Source of the DNA: Tubulanus polymorphus
Taxonomy: Eukaryota; Nemertea; Palaeonemertea; Tubulaniformes; Tubulanidae
DNA: 64,000 nucleotides
NCBI RefSeq assembly: GCF_964204645.1
Contig: NC_134031.1
Location: 20,953,307 to 21,017,306 of the forward strand
Direction of reading: 5' to 3'
How positions within the stretch are numbered: position 1 is the stretch's first letter; every line of letters begins with the position of its first letter. Under the pieces are notes generated by a model. It did not search any database and had not been told where the DNA came from. It saw only the letters and a list, made by a program, of their open reading frames with translations. Position numbers and translations under genes: made by a program. Shown here in pieces: positions 3,501-56,600 of the stretch.

Positions 3501-6500
3501 TCTTTCAGTCGGTTCGTGGTCGCTGTCAACTCGTCAATTTCTGACTGCATGACTGATTGTACTTCCCGCAGTTCGTGGCATTCTGACTGAAGACCAGCCA
3601 CCTGAAGTAAATAAGAACATCAGAAAATAAATTCAACTTCTAACAAATTGTTCAAATACTAGCCGCCTCCTCAGACAGTAATCTTTTTGGTTCATATTTT
3701 GATTTCAAGAAAAAAAACTTTCAAAAGTACTTAGAAAATTATCATAAGCAGCGGAAGAATGGAAGTAAATATAGCACTCACCTGGTTAACAAATTGCTCA
3801 TTTCTCTTGGTTGCAGTATTCAAATCTGCGTCAATTTGAATAACCTGACTAGTCAATTCCTTCTTTTCTTCAAGCAATTTTGCATTAGTCGTTTCAATGT
3901 CTTTAAGTTTTGTATTAGTAGAAGTGTTCTCGTTTAGCGATGCTTGCAAGTCTTCTCTGATGTTCTTTAATTCAGTTTGGAGTCCGGACAAGGTCGTTTC
4001 GAGTCCTGCTTTCTCAGTACTCGCCGTTCCGAGTTTATCTTCCATTTCGAGAAACTGGTTCAAAGCTTCTTTCGACTGTCGTTCTTCGAAGACTAATTTT
4101 TCTTCTGTACACTGCAAGCTTTTTCGCAGAACCTCCAATTCGTATTTCAGCCCTTGAATTTCATCATTTGCACAAGTTGATTCAGTCTTGACCTCCTTTA
4201 ATCTCAGTTCAATTTCACATTTTTCAGATTCTAATTCCTGTATAATTTTCTCCAAGGCGCATTTATCTGTTGCCAGTTGCTGAATAGTAGATGCCTGCTC
4301 TTTGATAACCGCGCCGCTGTCTGTGTTATCTGAATTTATCAAAGCCACTTCACTCGATAAAGCTTCAACGCGTTCTTTAAGACTATCTTTTTCAGCCGTT
4401 ATGCTTCGCATTTCTGCATCGACGTCACATTTCTCTTTCTTCAAAGCTTCCAATGCCGAGTCTTTCTCTTGAACAACATATTTCATTTCACTTATGATTG
4501 ATCTTGTTTGGTTTAGTTCTGTTGACAAGGATTCTACTCGACTTTCTAAATCTATTTCAGCGTTTTTCAAGGTAGAAATTTCAGCCCGTAATGCTTTATT
4601 TTGCGACGTAGATTCTTCAACGAGTAACGTTTGAACCTTAATTTCATCTTCTAGATCTGATTGAACCGAGTTCACATATTGCATTTGTGTTTCCATAGTT
4701 GCAATTTTCACTTCGAATGTATCCTTTTCGATTGTAAGCTCATCAATTTGACGTAATTTTTCAGTAATATCTCGATTTAAACCTTCATTGTTGTCCTTTT
4801 CTTTTCGTTGTTCGTCGATCAAATCTCTGATTTCGGCGTCTTTTGCCTCGATCAAGAGAACTTTTTCCGACATTTTATCTTTATACATTTGTTTATCCTT
4901 TTCACACTTTGCGAGACATTTCTCTAAACTCTGACAACAGGTTCTTATTTCGCTAACTTCAGCCTCAACTATTGACAATTGTCGGACAACGTGGTCACGT
5001 TCTGCTTTTATCGTACTATTTTCTTGTTCAAGTGCGGTTAATTTTTCCTGTTCCAATTCAAGATTTGAAGATATCTGATCGCTTTCAGACAATTTATTCG
5101 TAAGCGTCACATTTTCAGCTTCAACGGATCGAAGTCTCTCTAGCAGTTCCATTTTCTCGGCTTCTAATTTGTTCTCAGTCTGTTTCGATTCCGCTAAATA
5201 TGATTCAATCTCATCGTTATTCCTTTCAAGTAGATCAATGTGTGACTGAACCTTCGACAGCGAATGCACCAATTCGTCTCTCTCCTGCCCAAGTTCCGTC
5301 AAATTCAAATGTAATTTTTCGTTCTGTTCCCGTAGTTCAACTGACTGTTTTACATATTGTTCTTTTTCATCTAACTCCATTTTCACATTAGCAAGCGCCA
5401 TTTCAAGCTCCTTTAATTTTGTGTCTCGTTCAATATTATGATCATCTGTATCTACTTTCAAGGAAAGCATATCATTGCGTAGTTCTTGACAACCATTTAC
5501 TAATGTATCATTTCTCGATTGTTCATTGGTCACTTGATTTTCGAGTTGCTGTATTTGAGTACGCAGATCACACATTTCTTGTGTTTGAGATTTCAATTTA
5601 TTCTGACAATCCGTTAACTCGGCCTTGACGTGATCCATGTTTTCGATCATTTTTGCACAGTTGTCTCGATTAACCATCAAATCCGAGTAACTGCAAGTCT
5701 TTTCCTCGAGTTCTTTTTCCACTCTATTCGCTCGACCTAACAATTCACTATTTATGTCTTCAAGCGCTTTAATCTTCTCACTATAACTCACACAATCAGC
5801 CTCTAATTTGCTGCACTTTTCTTTCATTTCCTCAACAAACAAAAGGGAAGCTCGATGATCATTCTCAGTTTGTGTGATCCGGTATTCTAACTCAATTTTA
5901 GTCGACTGAATCTCACATTTTTCCTCAGAGATTCTACTACATTCAATTTCCCTTTCGCTTATTTTATTTTCTAATGTATTCACTTGATTAAGAATCTCTT
6001 CTTTCTCAAGTTTGAGAGCGTCGTAACTTGTACCTAATGACGTGTACTCCAATTTTGATGTCTCTATTTCGCTACTGAGCCGTTCTTTTTCTTCAGTAAG
6101 TGAGACAAGTTGAATTTGAAGCTGGCTAGATTTTACTTCTTCGCCATCAAACAAAGTCTGTAACTCGCTCAACTGATCTTTCAGAATACCTATTTCTTCT
6201 CGTAAAGAATTATTGTCCATTTGTTTGATATCCTGCATAGAAACCTTTGCTTCCTGGGCACTAGCCAACTCAGTTTTTAGGGACTCTATTTTATCCATGA
6301 GTAACTGAATTTCAGCTTTACCAGCAACTTCAGCTTTATTCAACATTTCGAACTGCTTCTCGATACCGTCGACGTAAGACAAATATTCTTGGTATTCTTC
6401 ATTTAACGATTCATTCTCGGTCGATAATTTATCGTACTTCTCAATAAGTTGTTCATGTTTGTTGTTCACATCAGAAATAACTTGATCTTTTTCATCGATC

Positions 6501-9500
6501 AAAAGACGTAATGAATCAAGCTCTTCATTCGTGCGGTTGATATTAACTTGAAGATTTTCCATCTGTTGGGCTGTTTCGTTCTTCTCACTTTCCATTGCAA
6601 TTAACTGAGTTTGACATTGCGTAAGTTTTTCATCAAGAGAGCAATTCTTTGAAACTTGCTCATCTAATTTAAGCTGATGCTCTTCATTTAGTGAAGCGAT
6701 TTTATTTTCGTGAAGTTTGTCCCTATCTTCTGCATTGCCATTCATTTCACTAACAGCAGACTCTAGTTGCTCGAGTCGTGACTGCCAAGTGGCTTTTTCA
6801 ATGACATAAGTCTCTTGAGTGGCTTTTAGTAAATCTTTTGTTTCATTCAACTCGTCTGACAAGGCCACTGTTTTCATATCAAGTTCTTGCTTCTCATTTT
6901 CTAGCATCTGTTGGATTTTCTTGGATTGCCCTTCATTTTCACTTATCTTCACTTCCAGCAGCTGAATATTCTTACGCAGTTCCAGAATCTCTTTTTCACG
7001 TTCGACTATCAAATTTTCTTTTTCACTCAACTCAGTTGCTCGAGTCATAGATTCTTGCGATAGTTCTTGATTTTTGTTAAGGAACTTCTCTTCCAGTTCT
7101 CTGAAGTTCTCTGCTTTTTTATTCATTTCTTGTTGCATTGTGGACACTTCGAGACATTTGGCATCATAATTTGAATTCATAGTTGCAAGCTCCAGCTTCA
7201 CATCCAACATATCTTGTTCATACTGATGAATTGTACCTTCCAATTTCTCTTTAAGGTTATGAAGATCATCGTACTTCTGATTGAGTTTCGTACTTTCATC
7301 TGCCCATCGCAATTCACATTCTTCAATTTCCATCCTCAGATCACTCACGACACTATCTTTCTTCTCTAATTCAATATTCAATTTTTCAATTTCACAATTG
7401 ATATCACGTAGTTGAGCTTCTTTTTCTTGGACTAATTTGGATTTAGAAGTCTGGCTAGTTGAAATCAATTCTTCTGTCTTGGCTACTTCATCAACCAATT
7501 CCTCGATTCGTTTCTCCTTATCCACAATAACCTGTTCATAAGTGGCTACCGTATTATCTCTCATCAATAAGCGTTCTTCAATTGCTTCACATTTAGCTCC
7601 AGCAACCGCTAGATCACTGCGGAGTTCATCGCATTCAACGAGTAAATTTGATTTGGTATTTTCAAGCTCCCTGACATTAGCCTCGGCACTTTTTAACATC
7701 TCAGATAGTTGAGTTTGTTGAGTTTCGGCGCTATCATTTAGTGTCGTTAGTTTTTCGGTCAAATTTTCATTGCTGCTCTTCAATTGAGTACATTCTCGTT
7801 CCAATTCTTGATTTTGCAACGTTATCTCCTGAATTTCTTCGTCGACAGTCTTTTGTACTTTCATCATCTCTCGCATTTCTGATTCGGCTGCATCAACTCG
7901 TTCTTTCAATAAATCTGCTTCCCTGCAGATATTATCCCTGGATAATTGTAACTCCGTTATTTGTTCAGTCAAGTCAATCTTAGCCCGTGCAAGGTCATCC
8001 ATTGCTTTCAATGATTTTTCCAAGTCACTCTTACATTCTTCTAGTTCGATGCTTTTCTCTTCTTTATTACACTTAAGTTCTTCGATATTTTGTTCGAGTG
8101 CATCACATTTTTTCTCCAAATTCACTCTGATGCCAGCTATTTTTTCGCATTCGTGAACTTTTTCCTCCAAAGAGCTGACAACTTCATTCATCTCCGATTT
8201 CTTTTCTTCCATCTCGGCTAAATGACGGTTAACTAAGTTCTTCATTTCACTGTCAAGATATTCAGTTCTTTTTAACAAGTGCTGTTTATCTTGTTGCTCC
8301 TGTTGTGACTCGTCTTTGAGCCAGTTATTTTCCGTCGTAAGTTTTGCCACCTCTGCATGCGCATGCGTCAAATCATGTTCAAATTCACATAGACGTTTCT
8401 TTTCATTTTCGTACAATTCCTCTAGATTTGTTTGCTGGAGTTTCAGGCTTTCGATAATCGAGTCTTTATCTTCGATGTCCATCTGCAGGAGTTCATTTCG
8501 AGCTTCAATCGCAGCCTTTTCTTGATCGAGTTGATCTTTATGAACCTTTATGTCAGAAGAAACATTGCACATTCGATCTTCCAAATCTTTCAATTGAGTA
8601 CAAACATCTCTATACGCAACATCTTTCTTTTCTAAGTCAGCTTTAACGTCTGATAGTTGCTGTTGTAACGCATCCATCGTCTGAGTTGTTTCATTAAGAT
8701 CCTCACGAAGTTTAGACTCTGTCTCTTTATGTAAACTAATGGCATTGCGAAGCTCACCAACAGTCATTATATGATTGCTGAGTTCTGTCTTTTTATTACC
8801 AAGAACCTCTTCCTGGTAAGAAAGTCTCGTCTGTAAATTATCAATCAAGTTTTGCATTTCTACTGACAAATCAGACTTCGCTTTTTCTTTAGCAGCTAAT
8901 GAAGTTTGAAGTGCATGGATTTGTTGCTGCATGTCATTAACAGTATCATTGTGGTCGGATGCAGCTTTTTTGAGATCATCAATAGTTCCGACCATTTCGG
9001 CACAATGACTTTCAAGTTGATTCTTTTCTTGCTTAAGCTGTTCAACATCGTGTTTATGAGATTCAACTTCCAATCTCAGAGTTTCATTAAGATTTTTTGT
9101 ATCTTCTAAGTGAATGGATATAAGCTTGTCTTGTTCTGTCAACTCGGTATATTTGCTTTGTAGAGATTCAAGTGCACTTTCATATTCTGTAACTTTTTCT
9201 TGTAATTCAGCGATTTTTCCACTGCTCTCAAGGCAGGCATTCTTAGACTGTTCATTGAGTATCTGTGTCTGATTAGTCAATTTTTCGACAATTTGTGCAT
9301 TGAGGGATGCTTCCTCTGATAGAGTCGCACACTTCTCATTCAAAATTTGAATCTCATCCACCTTTTCTTGCACTTGACAAAGCAATGCAATCTTTTCTTC
9401 TGCTAATGCTTGTCGAAGGTTTTCTTCTCGTTGTAAATCCATTGTTATCTTTTCTAGCTTATCATTTGCAATTACCAAATTTTCAGATAAGTCTTTTAAA

Positions 9501-12500
9501 GTTTCATCTTTTTCACTGATGACCGATTGCAGCTTGCCATACTCAGTTTCCTTTGAACTACACACAGTTTGAAACTGGCTGCGAATTGTTTCTATCTCAG
9601 CAGACGACTGTTCAATATGTTGCTTCAAGTCATTATTTTCCTTCGTGACTGATTCACACTTGGTCTCTAAGTTGCAAATTATTTGCGACTTCTCCCCCAT
9701 TTGAGTAGCAAGAATTTCTTTTTCTTGTCGCAAGCTTTCTTTCAGAGCCAAAGTTTCTGCATTTCTTGATGTCATCTCATCAAGCAGACGTTTCGCTTCG
9801 ACTATATTGATTTCTTTTTCCTGTAATTGTTCCTGTAACTTGCTTAATTCGCTACAAACATTTTTCAGCTGTTCATCTTTTTCCTGCAAGATTTTCTCTC
9901 CTTCCTCTTTAGTCTCATTTTGCGATCTGCCTAATGCAACCAACTGATCATTCGCCGTATCTAAGTCATCTTTTAATGCTTTGATTTCATTTTCATAAGT
10001 TTCCGACTTTTCAAGAAGGCATGTATATTTTTCATTCAACTCGAGCTTAGTCGATACCAACTCATTATTCATTGACTTAACATCATTTGTCTCTGAAATT
10101 ACTTTATCCATAGATTCTGCTTTCTCAGTCAGTTCATCGCATAAATGCTCGTACTTTTTCTCCAAAACACTGATTTCATTTTTCAAAGACTCGAGCTGTG
10201 ATACCAGCAACCCCTTTTCTGATTTTAGGCTCTCCTGCAAACCCATAGTTTCCTGATAATTCTGTTCTGCAGATTTAAGTTTTTTAAGCGTTTCATTGTT
10301 TGTGTCTTGAACTAATTTCAATTGGTTGTCAGACTCTGATAACTTTTCTTGAAGGTTTTTCACGTCATTTTCTTTAGTCAACAATGCTTCAGAAGTTTGT
10401 TCCTGCGTACATCGAAGTGTTTTCTTTAATTGTTCCAGTTCACTTTCCAAATCTTTCACATGTGAATCAAAACCCTCTACTTTTTCTTCCAGTAGCTGTT
10501 TATATTGATGCTGCATTTCTAAATCCTGATCAACCTTTGCTTTTTCTGCTATAAGCGATTCCTCCAACTCCGATAATCTCGCAAATTCTGCTTTTGCAGT
10601 CTTAAGTTCTGCTCTTGTGGCGGCAAATTCCATTTCTTGTTCACACAATGAATCTTCTACATTATCGAGAGATTCTTGTAATCTTGAAATTTCGGTATCC
10701 TTTAAACGAAGAGCTTCATCTTTCTGCTGTTTCCTTGTTTCCGATTCAGCCTGAAGATCAGATAAACTTTTTCTTGACTCAATCAACTGTTCATTCAGTT
10801 CGTCACAATTTTTCTGCTGTTGATGAAGTTCTGAATTGATATCGTCAATTTTCTCGTGCAACGATACATTTTCACTGCGTATTCCATCATTCAATTCAGA
10901 TAGTTCAATAAATTTACATCTGGTGTCTGACAATTCCTTTTCATTTGCTTCAAACATTTGTTGTATTTTGTTTAGTTCATTTTTCAATTCCTTGTTTCCA
11001 GATTCCAATTCTTGCATCTGCATTTCCCGAGTCTCGTTAACAGTCTTTTGATTTTGCATCAACTGATTTATCTTCTCCTCTAAAAGTTGGTTATGCTGCT
11101 CAGATTCTAAACTCTTCTCAGAAATTTCATTATATTTCTCAGACAAATCATTTCTCTCGACAATGATTGCTTCGTAGTCTGCTTGAAGAGAAAATTTCTG
11201 CTGAACCAGAGTTTCGTGCTGGTCCATCTGATTTTTCAATTTTTCTGTCTTCTCAGTGATTTGCTGAGCTAAATCCTCGAGTTTCGTTTGCATTTTGACC
11301 AAGTTTTCTGATTGCTGACCAATTTCTGATTGTTGCGACTGGATTCGAGCTTCCTTGCTGGCAATAACTTCGTCTCTCTGCCCAATGATTTCTTCCAGCG
11401 AAGTAGTTTTACTAGAAAATTGGTCAACCTGATAAGAAGAAACAGTATCAATCTGCTATTCAGCCTTATATTTTCATAAACCAAGATGACTACCAGTCAA
11501 CCACCTTGAATGACATTATAACCTTAATTCAAATACAGATCCTAAATGTCATTTAACATTTTCATGAGAAAGTTCAATGCTCAACATCAAATACAGTTAT
11601 AGGCCAAAAACTAAACATTAGGAATCAAAGACCACAGGTCAGCCATCTTGAATGCAATTACTTTCAAATTAACTAGGGTTTATTGTATGCCACCACATCC
11701 ATCTAACTAACATGAAAATCTTAAGGATTGTATCTCAACTGGTTTTAAGTGATTGTGGTAACACAAACTTCATGCGGACACAGTACAGTGAGGTCATAAT
11801 TGACAAGCTGCCATTGACAACAATAGATAATATTCACCTGATCAGATAGACCTGCTAGTTTTCCAGAAAGTTCCACAGTTTGTTCCAGTAAATCTGAACT
11901 CTTTTGTTGCAATGAATTGCGCTCTCTTTCCACCTCAGTTAAAGATCCTGAAAAATAAATGTCATTGTTGAAAGAAACAGATCAATCCAGCAGTTCAATG
12001 AGTCTTTACACTTTTTCTCGTAGATGAAGGGCTTCTAGTGATTTTCATTGTCAGTCAGAAACTCACCTCGTAAATTAGCTTCAATCTGTTCATGTTGAGA
12101 TTTTGTTGTTTTCAATTCTTCCTCAAACTGCATCAACTTGGCAGATTTTTCTTCTAATTCAGATTCATATTGAACCTTACCGTTTACGAGTTCCCTACAA
12201 TCAATAGAATATTGAATGAATGAAAGAATTTACAATTCAGATTCAGTTGTCGTAATTGTTCATTAAACATAACTCTTTATTTTCCAAAAAGGAGAAGTTT
12301 TACTGAAAAACTTACTGATGAACTGCTTGAAGTGTCGTATGAGTTTCTTGCAAATGCTGCAATTCCGAAGCATTGCGAGTAGATTTTTCCACTTCAGCTT
12401 CCACCTGAGCTGTCAAAGTTTGAATTTCTTGTTCACTCTTTTCCATCGATTCTTTCAATTCAGTGACTTCTTGCTGCAGTTTCATCAACTCGATGTTTTT

Positions 12501-15500
12501 ATTTTGAACTGTCTGCTCAGAGTTTCCGAGCTGCACATCTAATTCATTCTTCAACTTCTCCATTTTACCGAGTTTTGTGTCGGCGTCTTCGAGTTTCTCT
12601 TGAAGATTGAGAATTTCGTTATTCTTTTCGTTGACCATACGATCGTAATTTTCTGTTTTGCCTTTCATCTGATCGACCGTAACCTGTAAATCTTCTGAAC
12701 GTTTACTCAAAGTGAAATTATCGTCCATCAATCCGGAACTTTCGATTTCTTTCATTTGCAGCTCGTTTCTAACGGCGATAACGTTTCGTTCACTCTCCTC
12801 GTATTTCAACTGTAATTCGTCGAAATCTTTTTGCATTTTTGCGATCTTCGAATCGACGTTCGTCTTTTCCGTTTGTATTTCGGCGACTTCTTTTTTCAGT
12901 TTATCAACATTCGCGTTCAAATCTTTCGATTGTTTTTCGAACGTTTTGCGCAAGGTATCGATTTCTTGTTCCATTTGTTGTTTCTTTGCTTTGAGTTCTT
13001 CGTTGTACTGAGTCATTTTATCGATACGTGATTTTGTGTCACCGAGTTCTTTTTCCATACGAGTACAATCTCGCTGTCGTTCACAAAGATCTTTCGCCAC
13101 AGTATCCTATAAGAGATAATATATCGTAGTGTAAATGTTAGTATATCAATAAGTCATTATCCAGTTTGAATTCAAACACATGGTGATAACAACTTTACCT
13201 TAGATTTTTTCAGCTCATCCGAGTTTCTTTGCATTTCTTGTTGCTGGCTCTGCATCTGTAAGATGAGAAATTCAAAACGTTGACAGTCAAAGTCTGTGAA
13301 TTCCTCAGTTCTTCATTCATTTTATCAACAAGAAACATCCGAAATAATGACTGGGACAAAATATTTACCTTGTAGTTTGCCTGCTCAAGTTGCGCTTTGA
13401 GCTTAGTTATTTCTTCTGAGTGTTTGGTGATAGACTGATCTTTAGTGACGAGCATTTTCTCAGTGCGATCAAAATCCAGTTGCACTTCTTTCACACGGTC
13501 GTTCAGTTTTTGTATATCTTTATCGCGTGCTTGGATTCGCAATTCCAAATTAGCGTTACCCGTTTTCAGATCTACGATGAATAAACAGTTATCGTGGGTT
13601 AAACTTAATGTAAAAGATTCAGACTATCTTGGTATTTCCAATGGTAAAAATACACAAACTACCGACATTTATTTTATTAAAATTGAAAGTATATCTTGAG
13701 CATGTTTTTTATGTTGTCATTCTTAAAAGAAAACAGAACAAATTGTATTAAAAGTCAAGGAATTTAAGTAGTGCGAATGGTCATCAATCTAATTCATTGA
13801 ACTAGAAATTTGATTTTGAGCATTCTTCTCGATTTTAAAAGAGCTACTCCTCTATAATTATAGCATGAACAGTTAGAGTTTGATTGATACCAAATTTTCT
13901 TACGTTCAACTTCTTTCTTGAGCTGGTTGACAATTTTGTTATCATCTGCGCTAGGTTGAGGTAGCGCTGAAGCTACTGGTGTCGAGTTTGTCGTCACATT
14001 GTTGTAACCGCTGAATACATTCGCTTGTTGTTCTTGAGTTGTCGGTGGCGGCGGTTGTTTCATGTGTCTCGACGTCATTAACGATTGATCGTTATTCATA
14101 CACGGTGGCGGCTCCGGTGAATCACGCGCAAATGGGCAACTGCTACGACTATTACTCTATAAATAAATACTTGATTCTAGAACATTGATTGGGTAGGGTA
14201 GAATTTTGACTCAAATTCCAACATGAAATGAGTAGACATTCAAGTCTCTCCTACATTCTTCTAATCGTTGATTGCCCGGGAACCTAAATCACGGGACATG
14301 TTTCATTGAATACAAACTAAGAAACTTCCTTTACTAAACATAGCCTAAATTATTAAAGGAGGTAACTAAGAAATTCTATATAAGCGCATTAGGGATTCAA
14401 AAGTAGGATATATCTAATCTTGCTACTTACATTTTTACGATAATTGTTATAATTGGTCGGTGGTGCTGGAACACCGAGTCCGAATGGGTCATGTTGTCTG
14501 GTAACTGGGGCAGCTGATTCAAAAGACACTAGAGGACCTTCAATGGCTGTCGGTCCATTTTGATACTTATTTGAGTCGGTCGTAAATTCAGCAAGCTTAA
14601 GAAAAATTATATCAAGTTACGTAAAACCAGTGTTAGATCGAAGCCACAATTATGATTTATTCACAACAAAATGAACCACACTATACGCGATCTGATTGAC
14701 TCATTTTGGACAAAAACATCAAGAAATATTACCTTTAACTGTAGATTGTGAAGATTCTGTTGAAGCTTTTGTTGTTCCATCATCGCTTCGTCTCTGGATG
14801 TTTCAGCAGATGACAACTTTGACTTCAAATCGGCTATCAGTTGATTGTTCGTTTCCTTCAAATTGTAAATCAAGACATTAGCAATTTATGTATAGTAGTT
14901 AAACACATGGACATTCTTATGCCATACCCAGCAAGGCGCAATGTTTTGAAATGATATCATCAAATGCCATGAATCTTATATCCCCAGAGCCGGCCCATTT
15001 GATACACAACAAGTCATGACCTTCACATAGTTTGACTTGAGATGTGGCTGAATGACTTTTGTCTACCAATGCCACAAAACGATTAAGCTTGAAATCTTTT
15101 GAAACAATATAATCAAAACAACATACAAAATCACTGTCCGAAGAGCTTCCATGCCCGCTGCGTGATCGTGATCGCTGAACGTTGTTTCCCATACGTCGTA
15201 AGTGATCATTTTCACTGTTCAGTTTCTCATAGCGACGATCTAAATCATGTACTTCTTGTTGCAGACGATCGAGTTCCGTTTGAAGTTTTCCGGTCTGAAA
15301 TAACAACAATAGCAATAGAAAACATGTACATGACTATAAAATTGAACAAGAGTTTTTACTAATTTGCCGTGTCTATATTCCTGTGCACATGATGTAGACA
15401 TTTACAGAAGATTTACCAGTCAATCTGAATTTGTATTTTTTTTTATAAACTACCCCTTATTCGCTAGAAGACCCCACAGTTTGTGATGCTCTGGTTCTCT

Positions 15501-39345: not shown

Positions 39346-39830
39346 TATTCCATCTTATGTTTTGAATTCTGTCTCTTAAAGCATTGACTGTGATAGAATT
39401 ATCTGTGATGGCCGTTCATAAAGCATGTATACATTTTTTGGTAGGAATTAGAAAATAGTATTTTGAGGGTGATTTAGTTGTGATTGTAGCAGAGAATGCG
39501 TAAGTCAGATCGCTTGGAGCTTTAATTGTCTTCAAAATTATATTTAAATATTCCATACTTTACTTGATATTAAATATGATATTATCATACAAGTACATGT
39601 ACCGTTTATAGTATTTTTTGATGTGAAATCTACTAGTATTGAATCCAACCACCTGTCAATCAAAATGATCGTTGTGATTGACAAGCGATTCTAGGAGTGA
39701 CCTCCGATGATTGAGCAATCTCAGTCACTGTTTTATATATGATAGTTATTCATTATGTGCGAAGTCCTTTTTTTCTTGCTTTCTATTTGTAATGTATACA
39801 AAGTTATGCAATGTTTATAAATTGTTAGTA

Positions 39831-39836
39831 AATAAA
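39831..39836 (+). terminator. CNTD1: Polyadenylation signal AATAAA of CNTD1
   Basis: AATAAA at 486 bases after the CNTD1 stop codon, followed by a T-rich stretch. No closer canonical AATAAA was seen. Confidence 0.55.
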
Positions 39837-39977
39837 GCAGTTCTTTATATCTATATATATCATGGTGTGTGTTAATTTCATCTCATTGTTTTTAGTGGTT
39901 CACACTAACTGTTCACACGGGTACCAAAAAACCAAAAATGCTTGATTGTCTGAGCCACCTTTAAGCACTGGTCAAAC

Positions 39978-40070
39978 AGGCCAACACAAGGGTTTCTGCG
40001 TTTATTAAACAGGCCAACACTAGGGTTCTACGTTTATTCACCAGGCCAACACTAGGGTTACTGAGTTTAG
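39978..40070. repeat. 32/33-bp minisatellite, 3 copies, right of CNTD1
   Basis: Copies starting AGGCCAA at 39978, 40011 and 40043 share the GGGTT...GCGTTTATT body with the 11-copy cluster at 35793-36155 and lie in the same orientation. The last copy decays after GGTTACTGAG. Confidence 0.9.
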
Positions 40071-50612: not shown

Positions 50613-53600
50613 TCAAGTATTTTGATGATGGCCGTGTGTTTGAGGACTCGGACTACGTCCTAAGGATGACAAGGATGAGCGCTGCGATGTGCCGTAGTTC
50701 AACGAGGAAAGTGCTTGAGCTCTTTGTACAGCCGCGATAGCTGCGGCCGGGATAGGTGGGCTTATTGGAGGAAAACAACGATCTGACAGACGTGATATAG
50801 GTGGCAGCCCGGTATGAGTCCCAACCATTGACGACAACATATTCTGTGATAGTGGACGTTGGTTCGTTGATGATATAGGACTCGGTAGTGGCCCCAATCC
50901 GTCTTGCTGACTATGCGTTGTTCTCAATGACAATGGCGCCATCACATTTGGCGTTGCACACCTATCATCGCTGTGACCCCCGTCGTGCATCGCCTCGCGC
51001 ATTTCTCTCATATTAGCTTCACGCATCTCGCGCATGTTCACATGATCTCGTTGCATATCCCGCATCATATCACGCATGCTCATATCTCGCATACTCATAT
51101 CTCTCATATTCATATCTCTCATATTCATATCGCGCATGCTAGCCTCGCGCATGCTGGCCTCGCGCATATTCGCCTCACGGTAATTCGCCTCAGCTCGTAG
51201 ACTTGCTTCGCGCATGTTTTCACGAACGACTTCACGCATGCTCTCACGTAGAGTGTCCCTTATTACGTCCATGCTCGGTGTAGCCATCGGATTATGTGGA
51301 TTCGTTAGATTTAAACCACCAGTAGGTGATAGTTGATGGCTAGGTGTACTTGGTCCGCTCGACATGTGGTTTGTTGGGCTATTCTGACCAGGTAATGGTG
51401 TAGCTGTTGTTGGGCTCATGGTGGGAGTACTGTTAGCTGATGTTTTGGTTGGCGAGTTGGAATGTTGAGACAAATGAGAGTGAAGCTGAAAATAAATGAT
51501 CAAACAATATATTTTGTCAATCAACAAAATAGCAGAAAACCTCAACTCTATCGATCACTGCGTAACAATATTCCGTAAAACAATCCCATCCCTTTAACTG
51601 AAACCGTAAAACAAAATGCTAGGCCTCATGCAACATATACCAATACTTTAAGACAAATACCATAATTAATTTATGCTGGTGCAAATATATCATTTTTTAA
51701 CGAGCTAGAATTAGCAGATATAAAACTGATATCTAGTATTATTTGGATCTAACCAGCTCGCACGCCAGATAAACACTCAAGACTGACAACGCTGAAAGTT
51801 GGGCACCCAAAATCTGTTAGATCAGTAGGTGGTATATGCTTGTGTACAGAGGCCAAGCCCTCTTTAATCCAGACAACAGGAAAACTCATATTTCCACACA
51901 TTTCAAGGGATCAAAAATATTTGATTATCTACGCCGTAAAATCTTTGTAATTTGCAAATTTTGATGCACCAGTGGCCCTCGCTGATCTGTTCATGCGATG
52001 CAAAACAGACATTGTTTTGAATAAATATTTGATGAAATTGCCAATATCGATGGCCTGAAATGACCTTGATAACCTTGGGGCTCGTTCCACAAACCTTAAT
52101 TAAAGCTTAACTTTAATCACTTTTATGCTCCCTTAAAAGTTCTGGGAATGGATTTAATTCCACTTTGTGAAAGAAGCCACAGGGAAGATCATAAATTAGA
52201 TTTTTTTGCAATTCCATCAAACGGGAAAGTTAGTGAACTTAATAATTGCATCTTGAACATTTTTCGCACGCAAGATCAGCTAGGCCAACTGTTACAAATC
52301 AGCAAATCAGATTAAAGAGGGTTTCAGTGAACACCTTCTCATCTGGACGGCTTACCCTTGAAATATGTTTGTCCAGACTAGACTCGGTGACAAATCCGCG
52401 TTGACATACCGTGCAGTAGAAACTCTTCCGAGACCCCTTGGCTTTTGTGTTGTCATGGTTTCGCTGATGATGCTGTAAATTGGAAAGCTGTGCGAATGCT
52501 TTGTTGCAGTCCGGTATATTACATTTATACGGTTTTTCACCTGAAATCAAATTGAGGTGAAAATGAACGTTAATAAATTATTGTTAAAGCAAAGTGGTTG
52601 TTCTGATACACTCTCCCGGTGTAAAAACATGGCAACATTTTCAACCCGGTGTAAAAACATGGCAACAGTTTCAACCCGGTGTAAAAACATGGCAACATTT
52701 TCAACCCGGTGTAAAAACATGGCAACAGTTTCAACCCGGTGTAAAAACATGGCAACATTTTCAACCCGGTGGAAAAACATGGCAACATTTTCAACCCAGT
52801 GGAAAAACATGGCAACATATTCAAGAGCATTTCTATTCAAACTCAGACAAAAAGTTTGAATAAAAATGTTCGCGAGGAAGTGAAGGCTTCGTGAGGAGAA
52901 ATATTTTGTGCCGGTAAAAGGCCTGTAAAAATGAAAATGCTAATTTCAGAAGTTGTATATGTGTCAAGATAGACAGAAGAAGCCGCTTAAAAGTTCACTT
53001 GTCGCGACGGGTAAAAAAAAAATATCAGACAAATAAAAGACGGATTTATAAGTTCTGAGAACTGTCTCTCAAAGTACCAGCATTCAATCTAAACTTAGCT
53101 TTAAAAATTAGGGAATCATCATCATTATTTGACTGTATAACTGGGTGGCAGTATGACTGGGTGGCAGTATGACTGGGTGGCAGTATGACTGGGTGGCAGT
53201 ATGACTGGGTGGCAGTATGACTGCAAGGGGATTTGATGGCCTCAAGTGATATTGAGTACAAAAACATGGGAAAAATGAAGTGAAATTTAGCTTTCGTATT
53301 GTAACCAGCCTGAAGGAAGATGATGAAACTGTTTTCTTAGGAAGAAAATTCACATCAAAATCTTCAGAACTAGTAGGAACAGTTGTATTACTGAATGTCC
53401 AATTTCAATCTCAATAGGCCTAAGCCATTATGTGTTACTGCCAGCCTTTTGTGAATGTTTCAACTTTCTCCGCGTAAATTTCTATTTGTCTAACTAAAAT
53501 GTCAAATCAATAATTATTTTTCAGCTTTATTAGTTTTTCTGTAGCATTCCAACAGTATTGTCCATTTCATCGATAAAAAAACTTAAAAGATTCATTCAAA

Positions 53601-56600
53601 CTATTCATCTGTCTGGTTTTCAGTACAAGGACTAGGTGAACTTCACAATGTGCAGTTCTATATACAAACACCAGACGACACTTGATCCGTATTTTCATAG
53701 ACTGGAAAAAATCGATATGAATTGAGTAAAATGTGAAATATCTGATAGAACTAAGTGAAATTACGAATCATACGTATCAAAACAGTTGTCATTTTCAGAA
53801 TTTTCTCCACAGGTAGTTTTAACTAGTGCCGGTTCACAAAACATTTTCAGCTGTATATTTCTAGGCCAAATGAGTCATAACGATGTCATCTCCTCTATTC
53901 ATCCCCTTTTATTTATTTTTTCAGATTTTCTAAATTCCTCAATAATAAATTTCATTTTTGGTTTCCAGAAAATAATGAAGCAACGCAGACAAAATCATGA
54001 CATATTTGAAACAAAATCGATCAAAGCATCTTCAAAATTTCTCATTGAAAACTTTGAAAATGTGTGCTGATTTTGCTGAATAACAATGGCCGCCGGTCAG
54101 CCATCTTGATCGTGATGGGGCCAATATTTTGGCAAAAGATGCATCTATGGTAGATACGCACATCAATCAAATAGCACGACCATAAATTGAAAATTTCTGT
54201 CGACAAATGGACGGACAATGGACAAAAACTGTCAAACGCAATAGCCCGCTGGGACAGGTGGGCACAAGACATGTTTTACAGCGCAGAACTTGTGTGAGAA
54301 GATTGGCCTTTTCTCTAGCATAGATGATATACATACCATCCGGGATATTAACTCCATCGAACATTTCAGCACCAGGTGGCGTTGGATCATTTTTATCGTG
54401 GTTGCGTTGATGATGCTGTAAACTCGCCAGTTGAGCGAACGACTTGTTACAATATGGCATTGAACATTTATACGGTTTTTCACCTGAAAATAGATTTTTG
54501 AAAAAAAAATTGAATGCAAAGGAATAGAATCGCAATAAACAATGAAAATACCCAAAATCAGCTTTAAATGAAAATCAAAATGAAATCAAAATCGTCACTG
54601 GTCGACTTTTTTAGTTTTTGATAATTTTTTCTTATGTCGGTTTTGAAGAAACTATCACACCCTATAGCCACACCAGGCAGTTCCCTATAGCCACACCAGG
54701 CAGTTCCCTATAGCCACACCAGGCAGTTCCCTATAGCCACACCAGGCAGTTCCAATCACATGGTAATAGTATAAGCCAATTTCATGTTCGGTCCTCAATG
54801 AAAGTTTCCTTACGGTTTCACAAGCAACAATCACCGACCAACAAATGTAGTGAAACTATCAAATCAAACGATACAGAAACATAAAGGATGAAAATTGATT
54901 CAATTAATCAAGACACATAGAAAAATAGAATAACGTTTTTAAATTGCACATGACACATACACAAACAACTATATAAATATATCTATCTGAAAATATGACT
55001 AAAGGATCCAGAATAAAAGTGTTAGGGGGCAGTTTTGGTTTTGAATGTGAAGGAAATTTGACTAACAACTAAGTTTGGATTTAGGTATGGAGCGCCACTG
55101 TGGTTTACAAACACACACACATATATAATATACAGTTGAAAGTAGTTTGAATCTACGCTACAGAATGGAAATAAAGAAGCGCAAAATATCGACAATAAAA
55201 AAACAAGCACAGCTAAAAAGATGGTTGTTTTTGAATGGAAGGGTGGTTTTTGAATTGAAAAGCCTGCACATACCTGTGTGCAGCCTGGTATGGCGCTGCA
55301 GGTGTGAGAGCTGGATGAAGCCTTTTGGACAGAAGGAGCACTGGTATTTACGTTCCCCTGCAGCAAGAGCAGAGACCAAGAGTACATTTACACATGCCAC
55401 ATTTATTGAAATGATCTACTCTCTAATATCATGTCATTTCGTTCTTTTAATCTCGAATGAATCAATTGTTTTATGGTAGGTTATGGTGGTAAACTAAGGT
55501 GTGTTAGGATATAAATATAAAGTCATGAAAAAATGGCTGCCAACTTGGTCAACTTGATTTTCAAACTTAAATATTCTGCCAACCCCGACTGGAGATATCT
55601 TCATTTGCTCCGGGAGACCCACGTATATGATAAAACTTTCATATATTTTCCGCGAGTATCTTTTTTTGAATACTCGATGAAATCTGGTTTTTATGGGACT
55701 GATTCGATACCGATCCCCGAACAGATATTTTTATCATTCTATTCAAGTATTTCTCTTCAAGCTTGTTTTCCTGAGTTCTAATTAATGTATGTGGAATGCA
55801 GTTTTTACACGTGCCTCTGAAGGTCAGCTTTCACCGTTAAGGAGTATGTAAAAACCAATTATGACTTATGAACTGCGATGTCTCAACGATGAACGAGACA
55901 TCTCACAGTTGGTCGAGAACATACGGGATAATAGAAAAAAGTATGGTTCTTTTAAAAACTGAAATAAGAAAAAAGGGAGCTCAGTAAAAACTTATCAAAA
56001 ACCGAAGTCAATTTTAATAATGAGATTAGTATCGGGATTAGGAGAATGTACTCTTGGTTGACTACTCTTGCGTTTAAATCGATCACTTTGTTTTTCAAAT
56101 TCAAATCAAATAACAAGTCATCAGTAAACAATCCCTCACACACCTTGACACCGGTTTAAACCATGGATTCAAATACATACACATCGCTAAGTTTTACCCA
56201 TTTTAACAAATAGTTGGTAATTGCGAGAAATGCAAAGTATCGCAATTTGAATCCATTTTTCAAGAAAGTTTGTATCCATTTCTAACCCTTACACGGAGAA
56301 GTTCAGATTTTCATCGGCACAAGTCGGGACTGGAGTGAATGAAACAGTTCAGTCCCAGTTGTACTATTCCCCGCTTAATCTGATTCCGGTTCGACAGTTG
56401 TGAGTTAGATTTAAGTCTCTGAATTGAAATGAGTTAATTTTCTATTCGTTAACTCGGAGTCTGATCTGAATTCATAACCGTAGAACTGGGTCCTGATCTG
56501 TTTGTACTTATGCAGCAAGAATGACCATTTCATTTGCATATTTATCAATTTGAATGTAATATGTACATAATGATTAAAGTAACAATTTAAGTAGATGGCT

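Follow-up and report, generated by a model that had tools for sequence, protein, structure and literature searches.

A block of zinc-finger exons on the minus strand of the window, the 64,000-nucleotide stretch of Tubulanus polymorphus DNA analysed here, probably belongs to a neighbouring rotund-type gene, as an alternative 3′ DNA-binding module, rather than being a free-standing gene. In the explanation that we favour, the block would have arisen when the 3′ part of this neighbour, a LIN-29/rotund/ZNF362-384-type gene, was tandemly duplicated, would be used when the terminal finger exon of the neighbour is skipped, and would carry a cassette, exon A, that acts as a swap switch. We put this whole explanation at a probability of roughly 0.45, and its two inferred steps are separable. 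The more specific picture of a single transcription unit in which either of two alternative 3′ modules completes one shared first finger, the second module also containing the nested finger-swapping cassette A, is offered more tentatively. The exons of the block, which have AG/GT borders, are as follows.

57588-57366, minus strand: E1, 223 nt, phase 0 to 1; second half of finger F0 (KFENKSDVFNHGKETH) followed by fingers F1 and F2.
55357-55274, minus strand: E2, 84 nt, phase 1-1 cassette with one finger (GERKYQCSFCPKGFIQLSHLQRHTRLHTG).
54483-54337, minus strand: exon A, 147 nt, phase 1-1 cassette; C-x4-C finger F3a and a tail, KNDPTPPGAEMFDGVNIPD.
52540-52356, minus strand: exon B, 185 nt, phase 1-0; C-x4-C finger F3b and most of F4.
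51485 to a stop near 50613, minus strand: E5; end of F4 and the C-terminal region, with Met-Arg-Asp/Glu repeats.

The finger of E2 is 65% identical to F2 of E1. Its exon had been described in the initial annotation as an 84-base phase 1-1 single-finger cassette, and the borders and the frame agree. The same holds for exon A as a 147-base phase 1-1 cassette whose skipping keeps the frame and changes the number and spacing of the fingers: all four combinations of E2 and A inclusion or skipping give an open frame, ending at one common stop. Inside exon B, an in-frame ACG|GTATGT (about 52425-52405) is a possible donor; splicing from it would remove most of the last finger and keep the frame. The Met-Arg-Glu/Asp unit repeat (MREASMRDMNMRDMNMRDM...) of the C-terminal exon E5 is encoded at 51250-50990 of the window.

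A genome search with the E1-E2 fingers located a second finger array 24 kb upstream on the same strand (C7:21034487-21034750). The fingers in its 357-residue frame run in the order CVTC, CNFC...QLSHLQ, CQHPGC...FTQLSNLQ, CNSCYKCF, CHICGKSYTQETYL, with one FTQLSNLQ finger, an order that we take to be the LIN-29/rotund/ZNF362-384 pattern. This finger exon follows a phase-0 acceptor and begins mid-finger (MFESKSDLLVHSHQVH). The front half-finger, KRSYQCKMCDQ, is encoded 1.7 kb further upstream, and the upstream exon (C7:21036827-21036553) ends CKMCDQ|gtatgt.

The LIN-29/rotund/ZNF362-384 family is presumably defined by a QLSHLQ finger and, after it, a C-x4-C QLSNLQ finger. The neighbour has this order in unexpanded form; in the window block it is present as F2/E2 followed by B when A is skipped. 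The block resembles the family in these two fingers and in the gap-free alignment of E1 with the neighbour's rotund-type exon. It differs in the addition of E2 and A, in the spreading of its fingers over several exons and in its last finger, which is single (CTVCQRGFVTESSLDKHISRLH). The F4-F5 pair that follows the QLSNLQ finger (KPYRCNSCYKCF..., THICHICGKSYTQETYL) is encoded solely in the neighbour's exon and is missing from the window block. Because its last finger is single and different and the pair is absent, the block, judged by its fingers, is a second, divergent array: a divergent relative, not a LIN-29 orthologue. The relation to ZNF362/384 and LIN-29 that had been proposed for the window is supported through the neighbour with its one FTQLSNLQ finger, but the window block itself is not that array. 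We assume that the TESSL last finger of the block resembles dati, and the block may correspond to that gene. Drosophila dati (CG2052) is a zinc-finger relative of rotund and squeeze (PMC4188565) with one finger more than most of the LIN-29/rotund/squeeze/ZNF362/ZNF384 family, or ZFAM4 (PMC2889900; family also described in PMC12965309). In flies dati is a separate gene, whereas the window block is possibly an alternative module of its neighbour.

The case for a shared gene lies at the 5′ border of the block. E1 opens mid-finger at a phase-0 junction identical to that of the neighbour's finger exon; in both, a phase-0 intron interrupts the first finger after C-x2-C-x2. From this same acceptor the two exons align ungapped over 74 residues, 36 of which are identical. 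Upstream of E1 there is an in-frame stop at short distance and no in-frame ATG, so E1 needs an upstream coding exon that ends in phase 0. An exon ending C-x2-C-x2|GT with the usual donor form was found in the interval 57588-83494 only in the neighbour itself, and a relaxed donor search of the same interval added just short, non-coding-looking hits and one hit inside the neighbour's finger exon. The exact half-finger code has a single occurrence in the genome, and the stretch from E1 to the neighbour's upstream exon, approximately 26 kb, is free of assembly gaps. Conceptual splicing of that upstream exon to E1 yields a canonical finger (CKMCDQKFENKSDVFNHGKETH), and the upstream exon together with the window block can be read without interruption in each of the four exon combinations, as a frame of 517-594 residues. 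Such a splice, from the neighbour's upstream exon (21036553) to E1, would join TGTGATCAG to AAATTTGAA. The simplest reading of the half-finger, junction and interval-search evidence is that one upstream exon serves as splice partner for both modules. On this sequence evidence, we consider it fairly likely that the block uses the 5′ exons of the neighbour.

Against sharing of this kind stand the 25.7-kb intron that it requires and the need to read through the 3′ end of the neighbour. Alternatively, tandem duplication could have produced two separate genes, in which case the window gene would have a promoter of its own and begin its coding sequence with a short private exon, and F0 would stay a half finger. 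Tandem duplication usually ends in separate paralogues, and rotund, squeeze and dati of Drosophila are separate members of the family (PMC2889900, PMC4188565). Codon scoring between E1 and the neighbour's exon gave no coding stretch above noise; a scan of this type misses short first exons, and here would miss a private one that lacks the C-x2-C half, which leaves room for a separate gene. However, no candidate private exon was found in the upstream interval. The half finger of E1 has also kept all of its structural positions (F, hydrophobic, H, H) despite saturated synonymous divergence from the neighbour, which is unexpected if the finger is never completed. We regard two separate genes as rather unlikely.

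Within the block, exons 54483-54337 and 52540-52356 had been described as encoding nearly the same C-x4-C finger, and this is right to the base. The finger proteins of A and B (GEKPYKCSMPYCNKSFAQLASLQHHQRNHDKN and GEKPYKCNIPDCNKAFAQLSNLQHHQRNHDNT) are identical at 24/32 residues, and 72 of the first 96 nt are the same. Searched against the whole genome (268 Mb), exon A matches exon B best (75%, E 1e-11); finger 3 of the neighbour's rotund-type exon comes second (52%, E 2e-5), followed by weak, unrelated fingers. Because of this genome-wide ranking, the similarity between A and B, as read from sequence, is far above the level of unrelated zinc fingers. Finger identity is 79% between A and B, 68% between B and the neighbour's finger 3, and 57% between A and the neighbour's finger 3. 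This gradation suggests that A separated from B after the two modules had split and then evolved faster, although 28 residues cannot settle the point.

The two exons do begin with the same bases, as the initial annotation stated: the first 20 exon bases are common to both, or 26 including the preceding TTTCAG. This likeness is weaker than it looks, since identical codons at the shared residues are near the number expected from codon usage alone (14/24 versus 13.0). Third-position identity is 15/31 versus 13.7 expected by chance, and the NG86 estimates are dN 0.12 and dS out of range (saturated). By these estimates, saturated dS with a dN of 0.12, the duplication is shown to be old, with both copies kept by purifying selection on the protein. 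The suggestion that it might be lineage-specific, in the sense of recent, finds no support, given the saturation of synonymous sites. A recent duplication confined to this lineage and under little selection so far would explain the 26 identical bases that span the acceptor and the exon start, but it conflicts with the chance-level third positions, the saturated dS and the tails of A and B, whose alignment is no better than that of shuffles (P 0.21); we consider it very improbable. Derivation of the exon A tail from the downstream coding sequence of B, by a shift to a cryptic donor, was also considered and is unsupported, the alignment being at the level of shuffles.

The seven GEKPYKC codons are unusually alike in A and B; under different codon-usage models, the probability of such agreement by chance is about 0.5-5%. 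The exact 21-mer was found solely at A and B, though the genome has 12 unsplit GEKPYKC sites, and the number of identical pairs among these 12 is 1. Local gene conversion or a common splicing signal is a possible source of the identical start, and chance is possible too. Short tandem arrays lie in the introns flanking exon A (52840-52610, 53220-53140 and 54760-54660, minus strand), with units resembling ATGTTTTTACACCGGGTTGAAAATGTTGCC, CATACTGCCACCCAGT and GGAACTGCCTGGTGTGGCTATAG.

Conceptual splicing places different fingers next to E2 depending on exon A. With A skipped, finger B joins the finger of E2 through a TGEKP linker. With A included, finger A joins it through the same canonical linker, and finger B is moved 49 residues away, behind a 26-residue spacer, DKNDPTPPGAEMFDGVNIPDGEKPYK, that comes from the tail of A. 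Finger linkers in the block are canonical throughout, that between A and B excepted. Helix residues -1, 2, 3 and 6 are Q-A-S-H in F3a versus Q-S-N-H in F3b, differing at positions 2 and 3. The linker arrangement and the helix residues lead us to predict, from anatomy, that including A does more than add a finger: the finger next to E2 would be swapped and the rest displaced. As a swap switch, exon A when present would set F3a beside the finger of E2 and displace F3b and F4; when absent, F3b would take that place. Such a switch would alter the DNA subsite read beside the finger of E2, along with the reach of the array.

That exon A is truly skipped in some transcripts we take to be an even bet. 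The DNA is equally compatible with A and B both being always included, the duplication having become fixed as a constitutive extra finger with no switch. The splice sites of exon A are good, with a normal acceptor and a donor, ATG|gtatgt, one position further from consensus than those of E1 and E2, and the purifying selection is strong; constitutive use also has a precedent in the COE factors, whose duplicated HLH exon can be left out in a lamprey and is included in jawed vertebrates (PMC2394523). Against this, the exon borders are frame-neutral (phase 1-1), skipping gives back an uninterrupted TGEKP array, and constant inclusion would interrupt the array midway with a non-canonical gap of 26 residues. 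We give constitutive inclusion slightly less than even odds.

Each element of the proposed arrangement is known elsewhere. In the KTS isoforms of WT1, splicing changes the spacing of fingers, and in Drosophila lola and broad a common 5′ part is joined to alternative 3′ finger exons. Unlike in WT1, the linker change in the window consists of a whole exon carrying its own finger; unlike in lola and broad, the common 5′ part is a predicted one. The longer form of ZNF384 has eight fingers with a duplicated finger pair, the duplication lying in another part of the array than in the window block and not being known to introduce a comparable long spacer. ZNF384 isoform 2 is named for six C2H2 motifs (PMC8589989). 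ZNF384 is a family member with finger-number isoforms, as is possible for the window block. The H2d exon of COE/EBF, present in every jawed-vertebrate product and optional in a lamprey (PMC2394523), is similarly a tandemly duplicated exon in a functional domain of a transcription factor that can be skipped in frame; it codes for an HLH motif, whereas exon A codes for a DNA-binding finger. In common with alternatively spliced duplicate exons, A and B are homologous and adjacent, and the frame survives whether the exon is included or skipped. No paper on lola-type splicing came up in a literature search, and we have not seen the combination of these elements in a LIN-29/rotund-type family.

Developmental timing and the identity of appendages and neurons are controlled by LIN-29, rotund, squeeze, dati and ZNF362/384, and for several of these factors isoform-specific roles have been reported (PMC12965309). 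If our explanation is true, a locus with two finger modules and a swap cassette would illustrate how splice variants of one gene could become separate family members, and the choice of DNA targets through splicing would become testable within one family.

Relatives were sought in other DNA. Viral contigs scanned with both finger modules contained none, and a scan of genome contigs with exon A returned unrelated fingers only, mostly in eukaryotic-looking contigs of bacterial bins. Two contigs of the Endozoicomonas bin Pac_F2a (L009 and L012) carry long C2H2 zinc-finger arrays and are likely misplaced host DNA. A literature search for the QLSNLQ motif and dati in lophotrochozoans found no sequence. 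PDB and Pfam searches confirmed the C2H2 fingers and gave nothing further. Equal-score finger matches at C3 about 3463862-3464257 and C13 about 39665-40060 probably reflect an unplaced haplotype copy. Elsewhere in the window, at 3731-13106 on the minus strand, a very long coiled-coil protein is encoded by a single open frame of 2574 codons and further exons.
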